From: an uncultured Victivallales bacterium
GTDB lineage: Bacteria; Verrucomicrobiota; Lentisphaeria; Oligosphaerales; JAFGRS01
Direction: 5' to 3'
Assembly: GCA_903837355.1 (NCBI GenBank)
Contig: CAILUI010000217.1
Coordinates: 19,867-83,866 of the forward strand
DNA: 64,000 bases
The position numbers and the translations under genes are program-made. Shown here one piece after another: positions 5,347 to 53,379 of this stretch (its first letter is position 1; every line of letters starts with the position of its first letter). The notes under the pieces were generated by a model. That model saw only the letters and a program-made list of their open reading frames with translations. It did no database searches and was not told the origin of the DNA.

Positions 5347-7782
5347 ATGACCGTTCGTGCCGTTGTTCTCGGACTGCTCGGGGCGGCCCTACTGTGCGCC
5401 TTCACCTTCTTCAACGACATGGTGATGGGCGGTACCTTTTTGGTCGGGAACTTCCTGCCGGTGACCGTCTTCGGCGGGCTGGTGTTGTTCATGATGCTGG
5501 TCAACCCCCTGCTGCAGCGGCTCGGGCAGGGGGCGGCTCTGCGGGGCAGCGAGCTCTCGGTGATCGTGGCGTTGGTGCTCTGCGCCTGCTATGTGCCGGG
5601 GCGGGGTCTCATGCATCAGTTCACGACCTTCCTGATGCTGCCCCACCACTACGCCAAGACGACCCCAGGGTGGCAAGGCCAACCGGCGGCCATCCAGCCC
5701 GAGCAGGTGACCGATGCCTCGCGCCTCCGCCAGCAACTGGCGCACCACCTGACCGGCGCGAGTGGGGAATGGCGCGCTCTGCGCACCCTCGCCACTCCTG
5801 ACCTGCTGGCCGCGCTGCGCGCCGAGCCGCTGGCGGAGCCGCCGAGCGCGGCAACCTGTCAGCAGGTGCTGGCCGGCCTCAATGCGTTGCTCGAGAACCC
5901 GGCCGCTGCCGCCGCGATCCGCCAGGGCGTTTCCCCCCTGCCCCCCTACGCGCAACGGCTACGCACCCAGGTTGGCGACCTGGACGCTGAGGCCGCGCGC
6001 GATCTCACCCGGGCGTTCCTCGACGTCGCCCTCGCCGAGGCCCTGGCCCCACGCCTGCCGGCCGTGCTGCGGCAGGCCCCGCCGACGATGCTGGCCGATC
6101 CGGCCTACGACCAGGCTCTGGGGACCGGCGGCGCGCAGGCGCTGGAGGGCTTCGTCAACAGCATCGCCGTCGGCGATGAGCCCATCCGCTTCGTGGATGT
6201 CCCCTGGGGCGCCTGGCGTCGAACCCTGTGCTTCTGGTTGCCCCTGATCATGACCATCTGCATCGGCGCGGCGGGGCTGTCGCTGGTGATCCACCGCCAG
6301 TGGGCCAGTCACGAGCGGCTTCCCTACCCCACCATCGAGTTCGCCGCCGCGCTGCTCCCGGACGCCGCGGGGCGCCCGAGCCCGGTCTTCCGCAACCGGC
6401 TGTTCTGGCTGGGGGCGGCAACGGTCTTCCTGGTGCATATGAACAACTACGCCTGCGCCTGGTGGCCAGAGACCCTGATCCCGTTTCGCACCCAACTCAG
6501 CTTCACGCCGTTCCTCGAACTGTTCCCGGTCTACAACCGCTCGGGAATCGCCGTCTGGCAGATGTTCAACCCGACCCTCTACTTCACCGTCATCGGCTTC
6601 GCCTACTTCCTCAGTTCCGACGTCGCCCTGTCGCTGGGTCTGGCACCCTACGTCTTCGGCGCGGTGACCGGGGCGCTGGCCGGGTACGGCGTCGCCATCA
6701 ACGGCCCGATGCTGCTGCCGCATGCCAGCAATTTCCTGTACGCGGGCGCCTACTGCGGCATGTTCCTGGTCCTGGCGTACAGCGGCAGGCGTTACTACAG
6801 CAACGTCTTCCGGCGCTCAGTGGGCCTGTCTGCGGGCGATGTGGTGGAGACCTCGGCCGTGTGGGGTGCCCGCGCCTTCCTGGCGGCGATCGCCCTGTTC
6901 GTCATGCAGATGTCACGCGTCGGGCTGCAATGGCCATTTGGGCTGCTCTACGCGCTGATCATGGTGGTTCTGCTGGTCGTCATCAGCCGCCTCCTGGCCG
7001 AGGCCGGCGTCTTCTACCTGCACTCCTACTTCTTCCCATGCGCCGTACTCTGGGGCTTCCTGGGGACGAAAGCGATCGGCCCTGACCAGATGCTGATCAT
7101 GGCCATGCTCTCCTCGGTGTTGCTGATCGATCCCCGCGAGGCCTTCATGCCCTACGTCGTCTCGGCCCTGCGCATCACCGACCAGGCCCGTTGCCGTCTG
7201 GGGCGGCTCGCGCTCTGCGGCGTCACCGCCCTGGCCATCGGCCTGGCGGTCGGGGTCCCCGCCACCATCTACCTGCAGTACCAGCACGGGGCCATCCGCA
7301 CGGGCGACGGTTGGACAATGTGGTCCGTGCCGCACTTCGCCTTCGACGCCAGCAGCCAGGTCCGGCAGGCCCTGTCGGCCCAGGCGGCCCTGCCGGCCGT
7401 GGATGATAGGTCACCCTGGCAGCGCTTCCGCCAGGCCTCCGCGGCGCCGGCAAGCCTGATCGCCTTCGCCACTACCTTCGCCCTGGTCATCCTCTTTACC
7501 CTCTGCCGGCACCGTTTCGCCTGGTGGCCCATCCACCCTCTGCTGTTCCTGGTACTCGGGACCTGGCAGAGTTGTGTACTGGGCTTCTCCTTCTTCATCG
7601 GCTGGCTGATCAAGAAGTCCGTCACCAAGTACGGAGGCGCCGCCCTGTACGCCCGCCTCAGACCCCTGATGATCGGCCTCATCGCCGGCGAGATGCTGGC
7701 CTGCCTCGTGCCCATGATCATCGGCGCTCTCTACTACGCCTGGACCGGTACCCCGCCCAAGACCTTCGCCCTCTTCCGCTGA
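5347..7782 (+). CDS. Large multipass membrane protein, DUF6785/DUF6784-type
   Basis: 811 aa, many hydrophobic helices, extracellular-like loop region at about aa 110-300; family assignment from memory. Confidence 0.6.
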   Translation: MTVRAVVLGLLGAALLCAFTFFNDMVMGGTFLVGNFLPVTVFGGLVLFMMLVNPLLQRLGQGAALRGSELSVIVALVLCACYVPGRGLMHQFTTFLMLPHHYAKTTPGWQGQPAAIQPEQVTDASRLRQQLAHHLTGASGEWRALRTLATPDLLAALRAEPLAEPPSAATCQQVLAGLNALLENPAAAAAIRQGVSPLPPYAQRLRTQVGDLDAEAARDLTRAFLDVALAEALAPRLPAVLRQAPPTMLADPAYDQALGTGGAQALEGFVNSIAVGDEPIRFVDVPWGAWRRTLCFWLPLIMTICIGAAGLSLVIHRQWASHERLPYPTIEFAAALLPDAAGRPSPVFRNRLFWLGAATVFLVHMNNYACAWWPETLIPFRTQLSFTPFLELFPVYNRSGIAVWQMFNPTLYFTVIGFAYFLSSDVALSLGLAPYVFGAVTGALAGYGVAINGPMLLPHASNFLYAGAYCGMFLVLAYSGRRYYSNVFRRSVGLSAGDVVETSAVWGARAFLAAIALFVMQMSRVGLQWPFGLLYALIMVVLLVVISRLLAEAGVFYLHSYFFPCAVLWGFLGTKAIGPDQMLIMAMLSSVLLIDPREAFMPYVVSALRITDQARCRLGRLALCGVTALAIGLAVGVPATIYLQYQHGAIRTGDGWTMWSVPHFAFDASSQVRQALSAQAALPAVDDRSPWQRFRQASAAPASLIAFATTFALVILFTLCRHRFAWWPIHPLLFLVLGTWQSCVLGFSFFIGWLIKKSVTKYGGAALYARLRPLMIGLIAGEMLACLVPMIIGALYYAWTGTPPKTFALFR

Positions 7783-48326: not shown

Positions 48327-49319
48327 TCACCGAACCGGCCCTGGGTGCTCCCCGCTGAGCGTCTGCACCAGCAGGTCGTAGTAAGCCTCCAGGTCCTGCC
48401 ACGCCGCGGCCACGGACATCGGCATGCCCAGCGCATCGAGCGCAGTCGTGCCATCATCCCGAACCACGATGCGCAGGTCCTCCATGGTCAGCAGCGGCTT
48501 GGCGCCAGGCCAGGCCAGGTAGACCGCGACCGTATCGAAGAGGACGCTGCTTTCGGTCAACTCGTCGATGCTGTTCTTCCCCGCCCAGACGCGGTAGTTC
48601 TCCAACAACGCCTGAATGACCGGATCCGAGCAGCGCTTCAACGCCGCAAAGCGCGCGCCCTGGAGGCGGACAAGGCCGCAGGTATCGAGCGGCGTGATCA
48701 CCATCTGCTTCCACGGCGCCATCAGGGCCGCCTTGGCCGCTGGTATATTCGCCCTCAGATTCCACTCCGGGCAGACGGCGCCGCCCTCGTAACCGCGGCG
48801 CACGGACCCCTGCATGCCGACAAAAATGGCCCGACCAGCGATGTCCGGCTGCCGCCCCAGCGCCGCCGCGACCGTGTCGGACGGACCAATGGAGATGATG
48901 GTGAGCGGGACGGGCGAGGCATTGATGGCATCAATCAGGCTCTGCACCCCGTCCTCATGAACCGTACCGGCGTACGAGGCCAGAGCGTAGTCTTCTACCC
49001 AAGCCTGCTGTTTGCCCGTACCCTCGCGACCGCCGGCACCCAGACCGATGGGCACGTCGGTACGTCCAGCCACCGTCAGCAACTTGGCGATGACCCGAGC
49101 CCGGTACTCCGCCTTGCCATAGGTGGTGGTGACCAGCCGCAGATCAAGCTGCGGACTCCGCAACAGCATCGCCAGGGCCCAGGTATCGTCAATGTCGTCC
49201 CCGATGTCGGTGTCGAGCACCACGGGGAACCGCGCCGGCGCCGCACTCGCGGCGGAGATGGAGAGCGACAGAGCGATGGCGGACAGGGCCTGGGCGGCCG
49301 TATTCGAGGTTCTCAGCAT
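48327..49319 (-). CDS. Inosine/uridine-preferring nucleoside hydrolase-like protein with signal peptide
   Basis: FPVVLDTDIGDDIDDTWALAMLLRSPQLDLRLVTTTYG (Ca-binding Asp motif); SAASAAPA cleavage region. Confidence 0.93.
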   Translation of the reverse strand: MLRTSNTAAQALSAIALSLSISAASAAPARFPVVLDTDIGDDIDDTWALAMLLRSPQLDLRLVTTTYGKAEYRARVIAKLLTVAGRTDVPIGLGAGGREGTGKQQAWVEDYALASYAGTVHEDGVQSLIDAINASPVPLTIISIGPSDTVAAALGRQPDIAGRAIFVGMQGSVRRGYEGGAVCPEWNLRANIPAAKAALMAPWKQMVITPLDTCGLVRLQGARFAALKRCSDPVIQALLENYRVWAGKNSIDELTESSVLFDTVAVYLAWPGAKPLLTMEDLRIVVRDDGTTALDALGMPMSVAAAWQDLEAYYDLLVQTLSGEHPGPVR

Positions 49320-49362: not shown

Positions 49363-49915
49363 GGTCTACGGTGAACGGTCTACGGTGAACGGTCTACGGT
49401 GAACGGTCTACGGTGAACGGTCTACGGTGAACGGTCTACGGTGAACAGTCTACGGTGAACAGTCTACGGTGAACAGTCTACGGTGAACAGTCTACGGTGA
49501 ACAGTCTACGGTGAACAGTCTACGGTGAACAGTCTACGGTGAACAGTCTACGGTGAACGGCCTACGGTGAACGGTCTACGGTGAACAGTCTACGGTGAAC
49601 GGTCCACGGTGAACGGTCTACGGTGAACGGTCCACGGTGAACGGTGTGCGGTGAACGGTCTACGGTGAACGGTCTACGGTGAACAGTCTACGGTGAACGA
49701 TCCACGGTGAACGGCCTACGGTGAACGGTCTACGGTGAACGATCCACGGTGAACAGCCTACGGTGAACAGCCTACGGTGAACAGCCTACGGTGAACAGCC
49801 TACGGTGAACGGTCTACGGTGAACGGTCTACGGTGAACGGTCTACGGTGAACGGCCTACGGTGAACGGCCTACGGTGAACGGTCTACGGTGAACGGTCTA
49901 CGGTGAACGGTCTAC
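49363..49915 (+). repeat. Tandem array: 39 in-phase copies of 14-bp (GGTCTAC)(GGTGAAC) plus half a unit
   Basis: Direct count from 49363 to 49908 at exact 14-bp period; GGTGAAC half invariant in all copies; other half varies (GGTCTAC, AGTCTAC, GGCCTAC, AGCCTAC, GGTCCAC, GATCCAC, GGTGTGC). Confidence 0.97.
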
Positions 49916-49923
49916 CATCTACC

Positions 49924-50000
49924 GTTTACTGTTTACTGTTCACTGTTCACTGTTCACTGTTCACTGTTCACTGTTCACTGTTCACTGTTCACTGTTTACG
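49924..50000 (-). repeat. 11 heptads in inverted polarity: (GTTTACT)2(GTTCACT)8 GTTTACG
   Basis: Direct count, exact 7-bp period; reverse complement is AGTGAAC, the same motif as the main array. Confidence 0.95.
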
Positions 50001-50009
50001 GTGAACCGG

Positions 50010-50435
50010 TCACGAGGTGAAGTACTCAGCCGCATCCTCCCTGACCACCAGAGGCGTGGCCCCACAGAACGATGAGGATTTCGCCATCATGCTGCCCAGC
50101 ATGCGGCCAATGCGCGCTAGTCCATCGTTCAGACGGCCCGCCTCCTCGCGTGACACGTACCCGCAGTCCAGGGCGGTATCCACCCAGTGCTGCGTCTCAT
50201 ACTGCTCGGCATCAGCATCGGTCAGTTTGCTGATGAAGTGCTTCTCGTAGCGGCGTTTGCCCCAGGCCTCGGCGATCTGTGCACCGACCGAACGCGAGGA
50301 TCTCCTGATCTGGTCGGTCAGCGCGCAGCTCTCTTCTCGCGGGAACCGTCGGGATATCACGAAGACGTCCGTCGCCACAGCCTTCGCCTGCTGATAGACC
50401 ATCAGGTCCCTGAAACTCGCAGCATGTGGCGACAT
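50010..50435 (-). CDS. Four-helix-bundle protein (S23 / 23S rRNA intervening-sequence-protein family, Avd-like fold)
   Basis: MSPHAASFRDLMVYQQAKAVATDVFVISRRFPREESCALTDQIRRSSRSVGAQIAEAWGKRRYEKHFISKLTDADAEQYETQHWVDTALDCGYVSREEAGRLNDGLARIGRMLGSMM; family hallmarks VYQ.A...., FP.EE...L.DQIRR.S.SV...IAE. Confidence 0.93.
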   Translation of the reverse strand: MSPHAASFRDLMVYQQAKAVATDVFVISRRFPREESCALTDQIRRSSRSVGAQIAEAWGKRRYEKHFISKLTDADAEQYETQHWVDTALDCGYVSREEAGRLNDGLARIGRMLGSMMAKSSSFCGATPLVVREDAAEYFTS

Positions 50436-50441
50436 ATCGCT

Positions 50442-50546
50442 CCCCACCGTTCACCGTCCCCACCGTTCACCGTCCCCACCGTTCACCGTCCCCACCGTTC
50501 GCCGTCCCCACCGTTCACCGTCCCCACCGTTCACCGTCCCCACCGT
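50442..50546 (-). repeat. Tandem array: 6 copies of 16-bp CCCCACCGTTCACCGT (minus strand ACGGTGAACGGTGGGG) plus partial
   Basis: Direct count at 16-bp period 50442-50537 then CCCCACCGT; contains GGTGAAC on the minus strand in 5 of 6 copies (fourth is GGCGAAC). Confidence 0.95.
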
Positions 50547-53271
50547 CCAGGCTCAGCCCTGGCTCGAGCACCAAGCCGCTGCGGGCGGCGACGATCACGG
50601 TCATGACGCCGGCCGTCGGACCGGTCGGCAGCGCTGACCACTCTCCGGCTCGACAGACACGTGCCACGGCGCCCTGCAGCGGGCGCCACGCTGGCGACAT
50701 GGGCAAGTTTACCGTCTGATCGGCGCCCGTCCAATTGCAGAGCGCGATAGCAACCCGTCCATCGGCGGCGCGCCAGGCGCTGGCCAGGACCGCGGGCAGC
50801 CCTCCACGGCGCGTCTCGGACCAGTCGTTCCACGCCACCGGCAGGATGGGAACCTCGAGCTGGGGGGGACGCAGCATCTCGCCGTAGCACAGGTACTCAA
50901 GCGCCGCCGTGCGCGTCTTGGCCAGGTCGCGGAGGTACTGACGCAATGGCGCCATCTCGGCGTCATCGAAGGTATTCAGGAGCCCGAACATGATCCAGCC
51001 GAGTTGCTCTCCCCAGGTGAAGGAGAGGGCCAACTTCGAGGTGTACCCTTGTGCCTCGCCCCAAGTGTCCGGGCGACCGATGAAACAGCCCAGGCGAATG
51101 ACGCGGTCGGCGTACACGGCGGGAAAAAGGGGAAGGCGCGTCGACACCTCCATCTCGGCCCAGGTCAGAAAGGCCGCGGTGCGGTCGTTGTAGATCTCGC
51201 AGCAGTTCTCGCCGAAGGTCATGCCGTCGGGGCGCTTCTCCTTGACCGCTGCGAGTGCCTGGGCAGCGAGCCGCCGCATGCCGTCGGCAAAGTGGGTGCC
51301 GCCGCCGAGCGCATGGCCATGTCCCGCGTCGAAGCAGAGAAACGGCGCGCCGGTGAGTTGATCCAAGTACAGCCCGTCAACCGGCAGGAGGCCCATGAGC
51401 TTGCGGCACTCGTTGGCCACAATCTGCTGCCAGCCGGCGCTGGCCGGACACATGGGCACCAGGTGCTTCAGGTCGGCATAGGCGGGGCCAAGCGCCGGCT
51501 TGAGGGTGAGATGGGCGAGGTCAAGCGCCGTCCAGGCTGGCCCGCGGGCGTCGGCGCAGTAGACGTTGATATACGGTACGACGTGCACGCCTGTGGCCTG
51601 CATATCGGCCACGGCTGCCGCAAAGCCGGGCTTGGGGTCCAGAACCGGGTAACCGGCATCGTGTTCGCCGATGGACTGCCAGATGTACGCATGGAAGGCC
51701 ACCGGCGCCTCGATGGCGGCGGCAAAGCGGCCAACGCGCTGCACCTGCGGCTCCATGTCCGTGCGGCTGCTGCCCGGCATATCGCCCTGGCCCCAGGCGC
51801 CAATGTGGCGCAGCCAGTCGGGCACGTCGGCGCGGGTCGCCACCGGTCCGGCAACGGACCAGGGCTGCTGCAGCGCCCAGGCCCGGTAGCGGACGCAGGC
51901 ATCGTACCAATCGCCGGCAAAGGTGCCGAGAACCACGTCGTAGGGCTGCCGATACTCGCTGCTGCTGCCCATGTTCTCGGGGTACTGGCGCACCGACTGC
52001 GCCACCCAGTCGCCGCTGCCGATGTAGCCGGTGCTCTTGCGGTGCATGGCCGGGTCCTCGGTGGCGACGTACAACCCACAGCCTTGGGTCGGGGCGCAGT
52101 AGGCCTCGAACTGCATGGTCTTGCCGCCGCCGGGGTAGTCTGCCCAGCCCTCCGCGTAGCGCGCCCGGCGCCGCGGTTCGACCTCGCGCCGTCCCTGGCC
52201 CGAGGGCAAGGCCAGGTACTCGCGGTCGCGGTCGCCCATGGGTCCGAGCCGGTCGATGCAGGGGAAGTCCACCAGCCACAGGGCCATGCCGGCGCTGGCA
52301 CTGGCGGCGAGGCGCCAGCGCGGCAGCTCGTCGCCCTTGGCACTGATGGTCACCGTCACCTTGGCCCCCTGGTTCGGCTCGAAGTCCAGTACCAGACGTA
52401 CGACTCCACCCTCCTGCTCCAAGCGATGGGCGCCGCTCCCGGGCGTGACCACCGTCGCGGCATAGGCGTAGGACACGGCCGGACGCAGTTCCAGGCGGAA
52501 GAGCCCGCCCGCGCCGCCGGGAATGATGAACTCCGTCTGGCTCGGGACATCCACCAGGCTGCGCAGCGGAAAACCGGCGGCTCCCGCGCCGAAAGTGAGC
52601 GCCGTACGGCCGCAGCTCAGGAAGAGCTCCGCGGTCGCCGCGTCCTCCAGAAACCGCACCCCGGGCGCCACCTGGGGCGCCTGCTCGAAGCGCGCCAGGG
52701 CCTGCTGCAAGGTGGCCTGCTGCCCGGCCTGGCGCGCCTGCTCAGCGGCCAACTCCGCAACCGTCGGGACCAGGCTGAACGAGAGGTCGTCGTACCAGAT
52801 CGTGCCGACGCTGTTGTACACCTGCAGGATAATGCCGCAGGTGTCGGCCTCGGCGGGCATGGTGATCTCCGCCGTCAACTCCTGCCAGGGCGTGGTGCCG
52901 CTCAGCCGCGGAAAGGGGGTGAAGGTACCGAGATGCCGGGTACCGGCGGAAACGTTGTAGTAAGCCTTGGCGTCCGCCCCAGCGGGCACATCCTGGCAAC
53001 GGGCCCAGACCGAGAACCGGTAGCGCCGCCCGGCCTCCACGGCGACGTTTTGCTGCACGAAGTTATTCTGGCCGACCTTCCCGTCGATGCGCACGCACCA
53101 ACGGCCCTCATGCGGCTGGCTCTGATCGGGAGTCGCGCTGGCGTGCGCCGTCAGGCCGCTCAGTCCTGCCTCGAAGCCGCCGTCTGCGGCCAGGTCGCGC
53201 GCCGCCACCGGCCGCAGGCACAACGCCAGCAGAACCAGGGCAATCAGTGGTCGGGAAACGAGCATCAACAT
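50515..53271 (-). CDS. Large secreted GH-like protein (DUF6259-like), C-terminal codons derived from the repeat array
   Basis: RBS ggagg before ATG 53271; signal peptide MLMLVSRPLIALVLLALCLRPVAA; CBM-like N-terminal region; GQGDMPGSSRTDMEPQVQRVGRFAAAIEAPVAFHAYIWQ; tail ..LSLDGGDGERWGR* lies in the 16-bp repeats. Confidence 0.75.
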   Translation of the reverse strand: MLMLVSRPLIALVLLALCLRPVAARDLAADGGFEAGLSGLTAHASATPDQSQPHEGRWCVRIDGKVGQNNFVQQNVAVEAGRRYRFSVWARCQDVPAGADAKAYYNVSAGTRHLGTFTPFPRLSGTTPWQELTAEITMPAEADTCGIILQVYNSVGTIWYDDLSFSLVPTVAELAAEQARQAGQQATLQQALARFEQAPQVAPGVRFLEDAATAELFLSCGRTALTFGAGAAGFPLRSLVDVPSQTEFIIPGGAGGLFRLELRPAVSYAYAATVVTPGSGAHRLEQEGGVVRLVLDFEPNQGAKVTVTISAKGDELPRWRLAASASAGMALWLVDFPCIDRLGPMGDRDREYLALPSGQGRREVEPRRRARYAEGWADYPGGGKTMQFEAYCAPTQGCGLYVATEDPAMHRKSTGYIGSGDWVAQSVRQYPENMGSSSEYRQPYDVVLGTFAGDWYDACVRYRAWALQQPWSVAGPVATRADVPDWLRHIGAWGQGDMPGSSRTDMEPQVQRVGRFAAAIEAPVAFHAYIWQSIGEHDAGYPVLDPKPGFAAAVADMQATGVHVVPYINVYCADARGPAWTALDLAHLTLKPALGPAYADLKHLVPMCPASAGWQQIVANECRKLMGLLPVDGLYLDQLTGAPFLCFDAGHGHALGGGTHFADGMRRLAAQALAAVKEKRPDGMTFGENCCEIYNDRTAAFLTWAEMEVSTRLPLFPAVYADRVIRLGCFIGRPDTWGEAQGYTSKLALSFTWGEQLGWIMFGLLNTFDDAEMAPLRQYLRDLAKTRTAALEYLCYGEMLRPPQLEVPILPVAWNDWSETRRGGLPAVLASAWRAADGRVAIALCNWTGADQTVNLPMSPAWRPLQGAVARVCRAGEWSALPTGPTAGVMTVIVAARSGLVLEPGLSLDGGDGERWGR

Positions 53272-53379
53272 GCCTCCTGCAGGTGCACAGACGGCGCTAC
53301 CGAGACGCACGGCTGCCTGACAACGTGACACGCCGTCACCGCCGCGTCCAGCCGCGGCGGCGCGGCAGCATCGGGTCGA

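Follow-up and report, generated by a model that had tools for sequence, protein, structure and literature searches.

The main array of the window, 553 bp of tandem heptads at positions 49363-49915, is probably (at roughly 72%) the 3' arm of a selfish element that is compact and of the intervening-sequence (IVS) type. This element is composed of an inverted repeat arm, a gene for a 23S rRNA intervening-sequence protein (IVP), and a repeat arm. The window is the whole 64,000-nucleotide stretch of DNA that was analyzed, and it belongs to a 9.6 Mb metagenome-assembled genome (MAG) of 466 contigs. The IVP family (S23, four-helix bundle protein) is common, and we know of no function for it. Heptamer repeats are common in bacterial genomes, and to our knowledge they have no known origin. 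The data presented here link the repeats to the IVP family: arms and gene belong together, and the length of the repeat unit tracks the protein. IVP function becomes directly testable as the binding of its own unit by each subfamily. The element could also account for many breaks in assemblies and many intergenic repeats that lack an explanation, and rRNA IVSs are suggested to be a special case of a broader element between protein genes.

Organization of the proposed element

Read along the coding (minus) strand, the element and its neighbors run as follows: DUF6259 gene, 16-bp array, IVP gene, (AGTGAAC)10, (GTAGACC-GTTCACC)39, nucleoside hydrolase gene. The three genes share one orientation. 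The upstream gene (50515-53331, minus strand) contains DUF6259 and CBM_4_9 domains. Its last residues are array-encoded, and its stop codon falls inside the upstream arm. This arm (50441-50546, minus strand) has 6.6 copies of a 16-bp unit, CGGTGAACGGTGGGGA on the coding strand and TCCCCACCGTTCACCG as read on the window. The IVP gene (50010-50447, minus strand) encodes a four-helix-bundle/23S rRNA intervening-sequence protein and probably starts at the ATG at 50435. It is above the curated cut-offs of both family models, with 97.8 bits for PF05635 (cut-off 33.8) and 91.6 bits for TIGR02436 (cut-off 24). Between the gene and the main array is an inverted heptad array (49924-49996, minus strand) of about 10 copies of AGTGAAC on the coding strand (GTTCACT on the plus strand). 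The main array, also on the minus strand, is the downstream arm and has 39.5 copies of a 14-bp unit of GTAGACC-type and GTTCACC heptads. The downstream gene (48327-49319, minus strand) is of the inosine-uridine nucleoside hydrolase family PF01156 and starts 43 bp past the array.

Related arrays are thus found on both sides of the IVP gene. A point against the selfish-element explanation is that this layout is not a simple inverted pair: the 3' array closer to the gene repeats the upstream arm in direct orientation, and the far array alone is inverted. RNA folding predicts that the upstream and downstream arms of the element pair in 12-bp blocks.

In the proposed mechanism, the element is placed between co-oriented genes. 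Its arms would pair in the transcript, by analogy with the 23S rRNA IVSs cut by RNase III, and insertion between two genes would therefore be nearly harmless. The IVP would recognize the arm unit as DNA or RNA and would act in trans on gene-less arrays. The arms would lengthen or shorten in whole units through slippage or unequal exchange.

Arrays flanking IVP genes across phyla

A survey of 80 loci from many phyla was extended with relatives to 132 loci. At the 80 loci, arrays with a period of 6-24 cover 28-29% of the nearest 100 bp on either flank of the gene, and coverage is mostly about 1-2% at distances over 200 bp. Counting against the explanation, the nearest 100 bp of a given flank contains no array that passes the TRF threshold at about 40% of loci. 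Hexamers shared between the two sides in inverted orientation, with at least three copies per side, occur at 38.4% of 125 loci and in 0.25% of 792 same-locus control placements. For hexamers shared in direct orientation, the values are 8.0% and 0.5%. The best match of the upstream arm is its own downstream arm in 53 of 128 cases, and in 76 the own arm is among the top three. Ranked against 127 others, the own-arm match has a median rank of 1, where 64 is expected.

The arrays are thus strongly and specifically associated with PF05635 genes, lying inverted on the two sides of them across phyla. This argues against passive slippage, by which a chance repeat would have grown beside a gene, the array being functionless and the gene incidental. 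Slippage would explain arrays that are indel-free, in multiples of one unit, and with runs of identical variants. It would also explain why orthologous sites differ in copy number (20.7 at L108 and 10.4 at L110). That both the period and the sequence of the unit track the protein subfamily makes this explanation highly improbable.

On the protein tree, unit period changes 23 times, compared with a shuffled mean of 42.8 (0 of 200 shuffles). The test used one representative per orthologous site, with sites recognized by flank comparison; the short alignment leaves many forks unresolved, which weakens the mapping, and residual site sharing could inflate the result. Units of 6, 7, 8, or 9 bp occur among the subfamilies. 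The four-helix suffix proteins have 9-bp units, another clade has 6-bp units, and the clade of the window has 7-bp units. Members of this last clade come from Chloroflexota, Bacteroidota, Gemmatimonadota, and proteobacterial MAGs. The correlation between the sequence of the unit and the identity of the proteins is weak (Mantel r 0.27, 0 of 5000). Because repeat length follows protein subfamily, there is a hint that the protein recognizes or makes the repeats.

The upstream gene is co-oriented at 55 of 57 loci, versus 78% of control triplets, as counted on codon-trained gene calls. In the raw flanks, arms often begin near the upstream stop codon and finish near the downstream start codon, and the upstream stop is often within the first heptad of the arm. 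The stop codon was considered as the seed of the unit and rejected: it is out of phase at the MoxR site described below, and an open reading frame entering an array would stop anyway. Phage matches are negligible (1 record). Plasmid matches are nearly all cyanobacterial, and 1 of 6 inspected has clear arrays on both sides.

Several loci carry observations of their own. Translation of the heptad arrays in the flanks of L053 and L055 (genomes G036 and G037) yields IMHYELCIMNYAL-like peptides; database entries of this kind may derive from IVP-element arrays and not from real protein. At L157, L161, L177, L183, and L184, the IVP gene lies between ffh-like and folD-like genes across Flavobacteriia and the arrays are worn; as the site is conserved, some elements appear to have been vertically inherited for a long time. 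The IVPs of L054 and L076 (G038 and G033) are 92% identical, while the aligned parts of their flanking genes are just 62-72% identical. Strong selection on the protein or a recent exchange may account for this. L122, from a Cyclobacteriaceae MAG, and L123, a 943-bp contig of a Doudnabacteria MAG, have an identical element and a nearly identical flank, which is probably binning contamination.

Other IVP genes and gene-less arrays in the same genome

The genome of the window carries seven PF05635 genes over the cut-off and four weak ones. Tandem repeats flank both sides of five of the seven, with a different unit at each: CTGTTAGG (second arm about 600 bp off), GAGCGTGA, TCAGGTG, CGAGGGT, and the window's own. 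Of the other two, one carries an 8-mer-type array chiefly on a single side, and the second (L006) carries a 12-bp array on one side. Three of the four weak genes have 9-bp arrays, and the two that were checked encode four-helix suffix proteins (TIGR04258). Paralogues within the surveyed genomes (G numbers) are at most 57% identical.

Gene-less copies are abundant. The motif of the window has 398 matches as solo arrays versus 25 for the control. These are scattered across many contigs, many of which terminate in an array, and the other units of this genome are dispersed as well. Some gene-less sites (L097, L099) consist of inverted arrays back to back, resembling deletion derivatives.

Insertion and evidence of movement

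The junction between MoxR and DUF58 genes shows the element in several states. In most genomes of family f8, the junction is -1 to 75 bp long and has no IVP. In G033 it holds a complete 575-bp element. In the congeners G038 (132 bp) and G044 (74 bp) it holds heptad arrays and no gene; these may be relics or separate insertions. In five Verrucomicrobia the same junction holds a distant IVP, which shares 26-29% identity over the aligned part and has a different unit.

A pair of elements in Ca. Scalindua rubra (L167 and L172) is 96.4% identical over 442 bp. The similarity stops at the outer arrays, and the flanks are unrelated. One copy sits behind a sensor-kinase-like gene and the other behind a thioredoxin-reductase-like gene, names taken from reading the translations. 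This one pair, in MAG contigs, is the best evidence of movement and the single case that speaks for recent mobility.

The Scalindua elements also seem to be located next to or inside short repeats of another, AATTGAGG-like unit (L172 about 2860-2980, L167 about 5735-5780), which suggests nesting of elements.

An immobile, regulatory role is the other reading of the dispersed arrays. IVP would be a translational or transcriptional regulator, the arrays flanking it operators in its own transcript, and the solo arrays its regulon. The solo arrays of the window's unit are indeed intergenic and some are near start codons, unit length tracks the protein, and a post-transcriptional network has been proposed by MacGregor for TAACTGA repeats (PMC4679880). 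Against this stand the MoxR-DUF58 junction, empty in most relatives and held in different lineages by two distant IVPs with different units, and the copies at unrelated sites in one genome, which have only the element in common. The arms, moreover, are inverted on both sides of the gene. Regulation is therefore unlikely as an alternative to the selfish element.

Relation to known systems

IVPs as a family, IVSs in rRNA, and TAACTGA heptamers have all been described before. In the literature searched, with subscription papers and preprints mostly outside it, no link of IVP genes to flanking arrays outside rRNA was found. There is a plausible case that the element is more than a variant of known systems.

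The 23S IVS of Coxiella burnetii has terminal inverted repeats, an S23p open reading frame, and strain-variable heptamers directly upstream (PMC4990558). These are 3-4 tandem copies of GACAGAT before the reading frame, and the IVS is excised by RNase III in vitro (PMC4990558). The element shares with 23S rRNA IVSs a homologous protein family, complementary ends that can form a stem around the reading frame (from the predicted fold here and the inverted arms generally), sense orientation in the host transcript, and a patchy distribution. It differs in that it lies between protein genes, at this locus the DUF6259 and nucleoside hydrolase genes rather than 23S rRNA. Its arms are long tandem arrays with element-specific units, and gene-less arrays are dispersed over the genome.

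Direct repeats of the heptamer TAACTGA are found in Beggiatoaceae, Cyanobacteria, and Bacteroidetes, and S1, Csp, or CsrA have been proposed as binders (MacGregor 2015, PMC4679880). A text search of that paper returns no mention of S23, IVP, or four-helix genes. The two kinds of repeat are alike in being intergenic heptad arrays, often close to start codons and patchy across phyla. The unit of the window (GTTCACC/GGTGAAC) is a different heptad in a similar layout. The arms of the IVP element L108 are built of TCAGTTA units, and this heptad is the reverse complement of TAACTGA.

REPIN/RAYT systems consist of a protein gene flanked by inverted repeats, with dispersed gene-less copies, and the element described here works alike. 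Such gene-less copies are present in the genome of the window. Unlike REPINs, the element has tandem units of 6-9 bp and a four-helix bundle protein in which no transposase domain was found. The enclosed gene matches PF05635 and, weakly, bAvd only. It does not encode a RAYT (Y1 tyrosine) transposase, and REPIN membership was rejected on this ground.

The accessory protein Avd of diversity-generating retroelements (DGRs) belongs to the same fold family (PF22296 bAvd, 37.3 bits). The Avd models stay below their curated cut-offs (35.8 versus 80 bits for NF033474; 37.3 bits for PF22296), and DGR membership was rejected for this reason. No reverse transcriptase is present among the five neighboring genes of the IVP locus. 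CRISPR membership was also rejected, since the heptads of the main array are uninterrupted, with no unique spacers between them.

A broader reading is tentative and stands below even odds. Here the elements would form a widespread and so far unrecognized class of bacterial mobile element that has no known recombinase. Each IVP subfamily would recognize, and perhaps generate, tandem repeats of a characteristic length (6, 7, 8, or 9 bp), and the proteins would carry both their own genes and the gene-less arrays into rRNA genes and operon junctions. The 23S IVSs and the TAACTGA repeats would then be two manifestations of this class.

One-sided variation in the main array

The main array is made up of 79 heptads without indels. 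TRF finds a period of 14, 39.6 copies, 94% match, and 0% indels. GGTGAAC, as read on the window, is present in 39 of 39 units. The whole variation is confined to the 40 alternate heptads: GGTCTAC (17), AGTCTAC (10), GGCCTAC (4), AGCCTAC (4), GGTCCAC (2), GATCCAC (2), and GGTGTGC (1). The recount and TRF confirm the exact phase, the constant heptad, and the variable partner described in a sequence-only reading of this DNA, and the run of eight AGTCTAC units begins at 49447, as stated there. The copy number is uncertain in a MAG because many contigs of the same genome end within such arrays.

Six distinct substitutions explain the variable heptads, or about 8-10 events when recurrences are counted. 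Modeling of their distribution between heptads, which the same reading had proposed, puts the probability that randomly placed substitutions would all fall in the same heptad at about 0.03 (6 events) to 0.002 (10 events). Since variants spread via unit duplication, the one-sidedness is weaker than it appears. The asymmetry is genuine but by itself only moderately surprising.

The 78 arrays that flank homologous genes in many phyla have a 7-bp consensus, RGTRRNC ([A/G]-G-T-[G/A]-[A/G]-N-C, upstream coding strand). Within-array variation is lowest at G2 (3.8%) and T3 (5.8%) and is 11-18% at the other positions. GGTGAAC fits this consensus, and GGTCTAC departs from it at positions 4-5. The likeliest cause of the asymmetry is constraint on the on-motif half together with 14-bp duplication, because, of the two heptads, only GGTGAAC conforms to the cross-phylum motif. 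A dimer of the on-motif GGTGAAC and the off-motif GGTCTAC would be amplified in 14-bp steps. The on-motif half would be held by a recognition constraint, and the off-motif half would drift, with its variants spreading in runs.

The earlier claim that GGTGAAC is constrained as a binding site survives in this weaker form. It fits the consensus, but the heptad varies elsewhere: other arrays of the genome mix GGTGAAC with GGTGGAC, GGTAAAC, GGTGATC, and AGTGAAC, and the asymmetry is only modestly significant. This variation within the motif leaves room for chance: a handful of mutations could have landed in the same heptad by accident and then been multiplied by recent 14-bp duplications, with GGTGAAC unconstrained. 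Six substitutions suffice for such a history. The match of GGTGAAC to the cross-phylum motif, whose positions 2-3 are generally the least variable within arrays, makes chance the less favored cause and a rather unlikely one. It is compatible with the selfish-element explanation.

The suggestion that the variable heptad is actively changed is unsupported. Its changes are mostly transitions amplified in runs, the pattern expected from mutation and unit duplication, and the pooled spectrum has no directional bias. A priming role for GGTGAAC finds no support either. G-U wobble or deamination was rejected as the cause of the substitutions. In the main array, each of the four transition sites is an A or a C on the RNA strand, but across pooled arrays the per-site rates of A>G, C>T, G>A, and T>C are about equal.

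The reversed control pattern of RGTRRNC has many matches in G020 (74 + 86), G036, and G037, and these genomes therefore contain heptad arrays of another kind.
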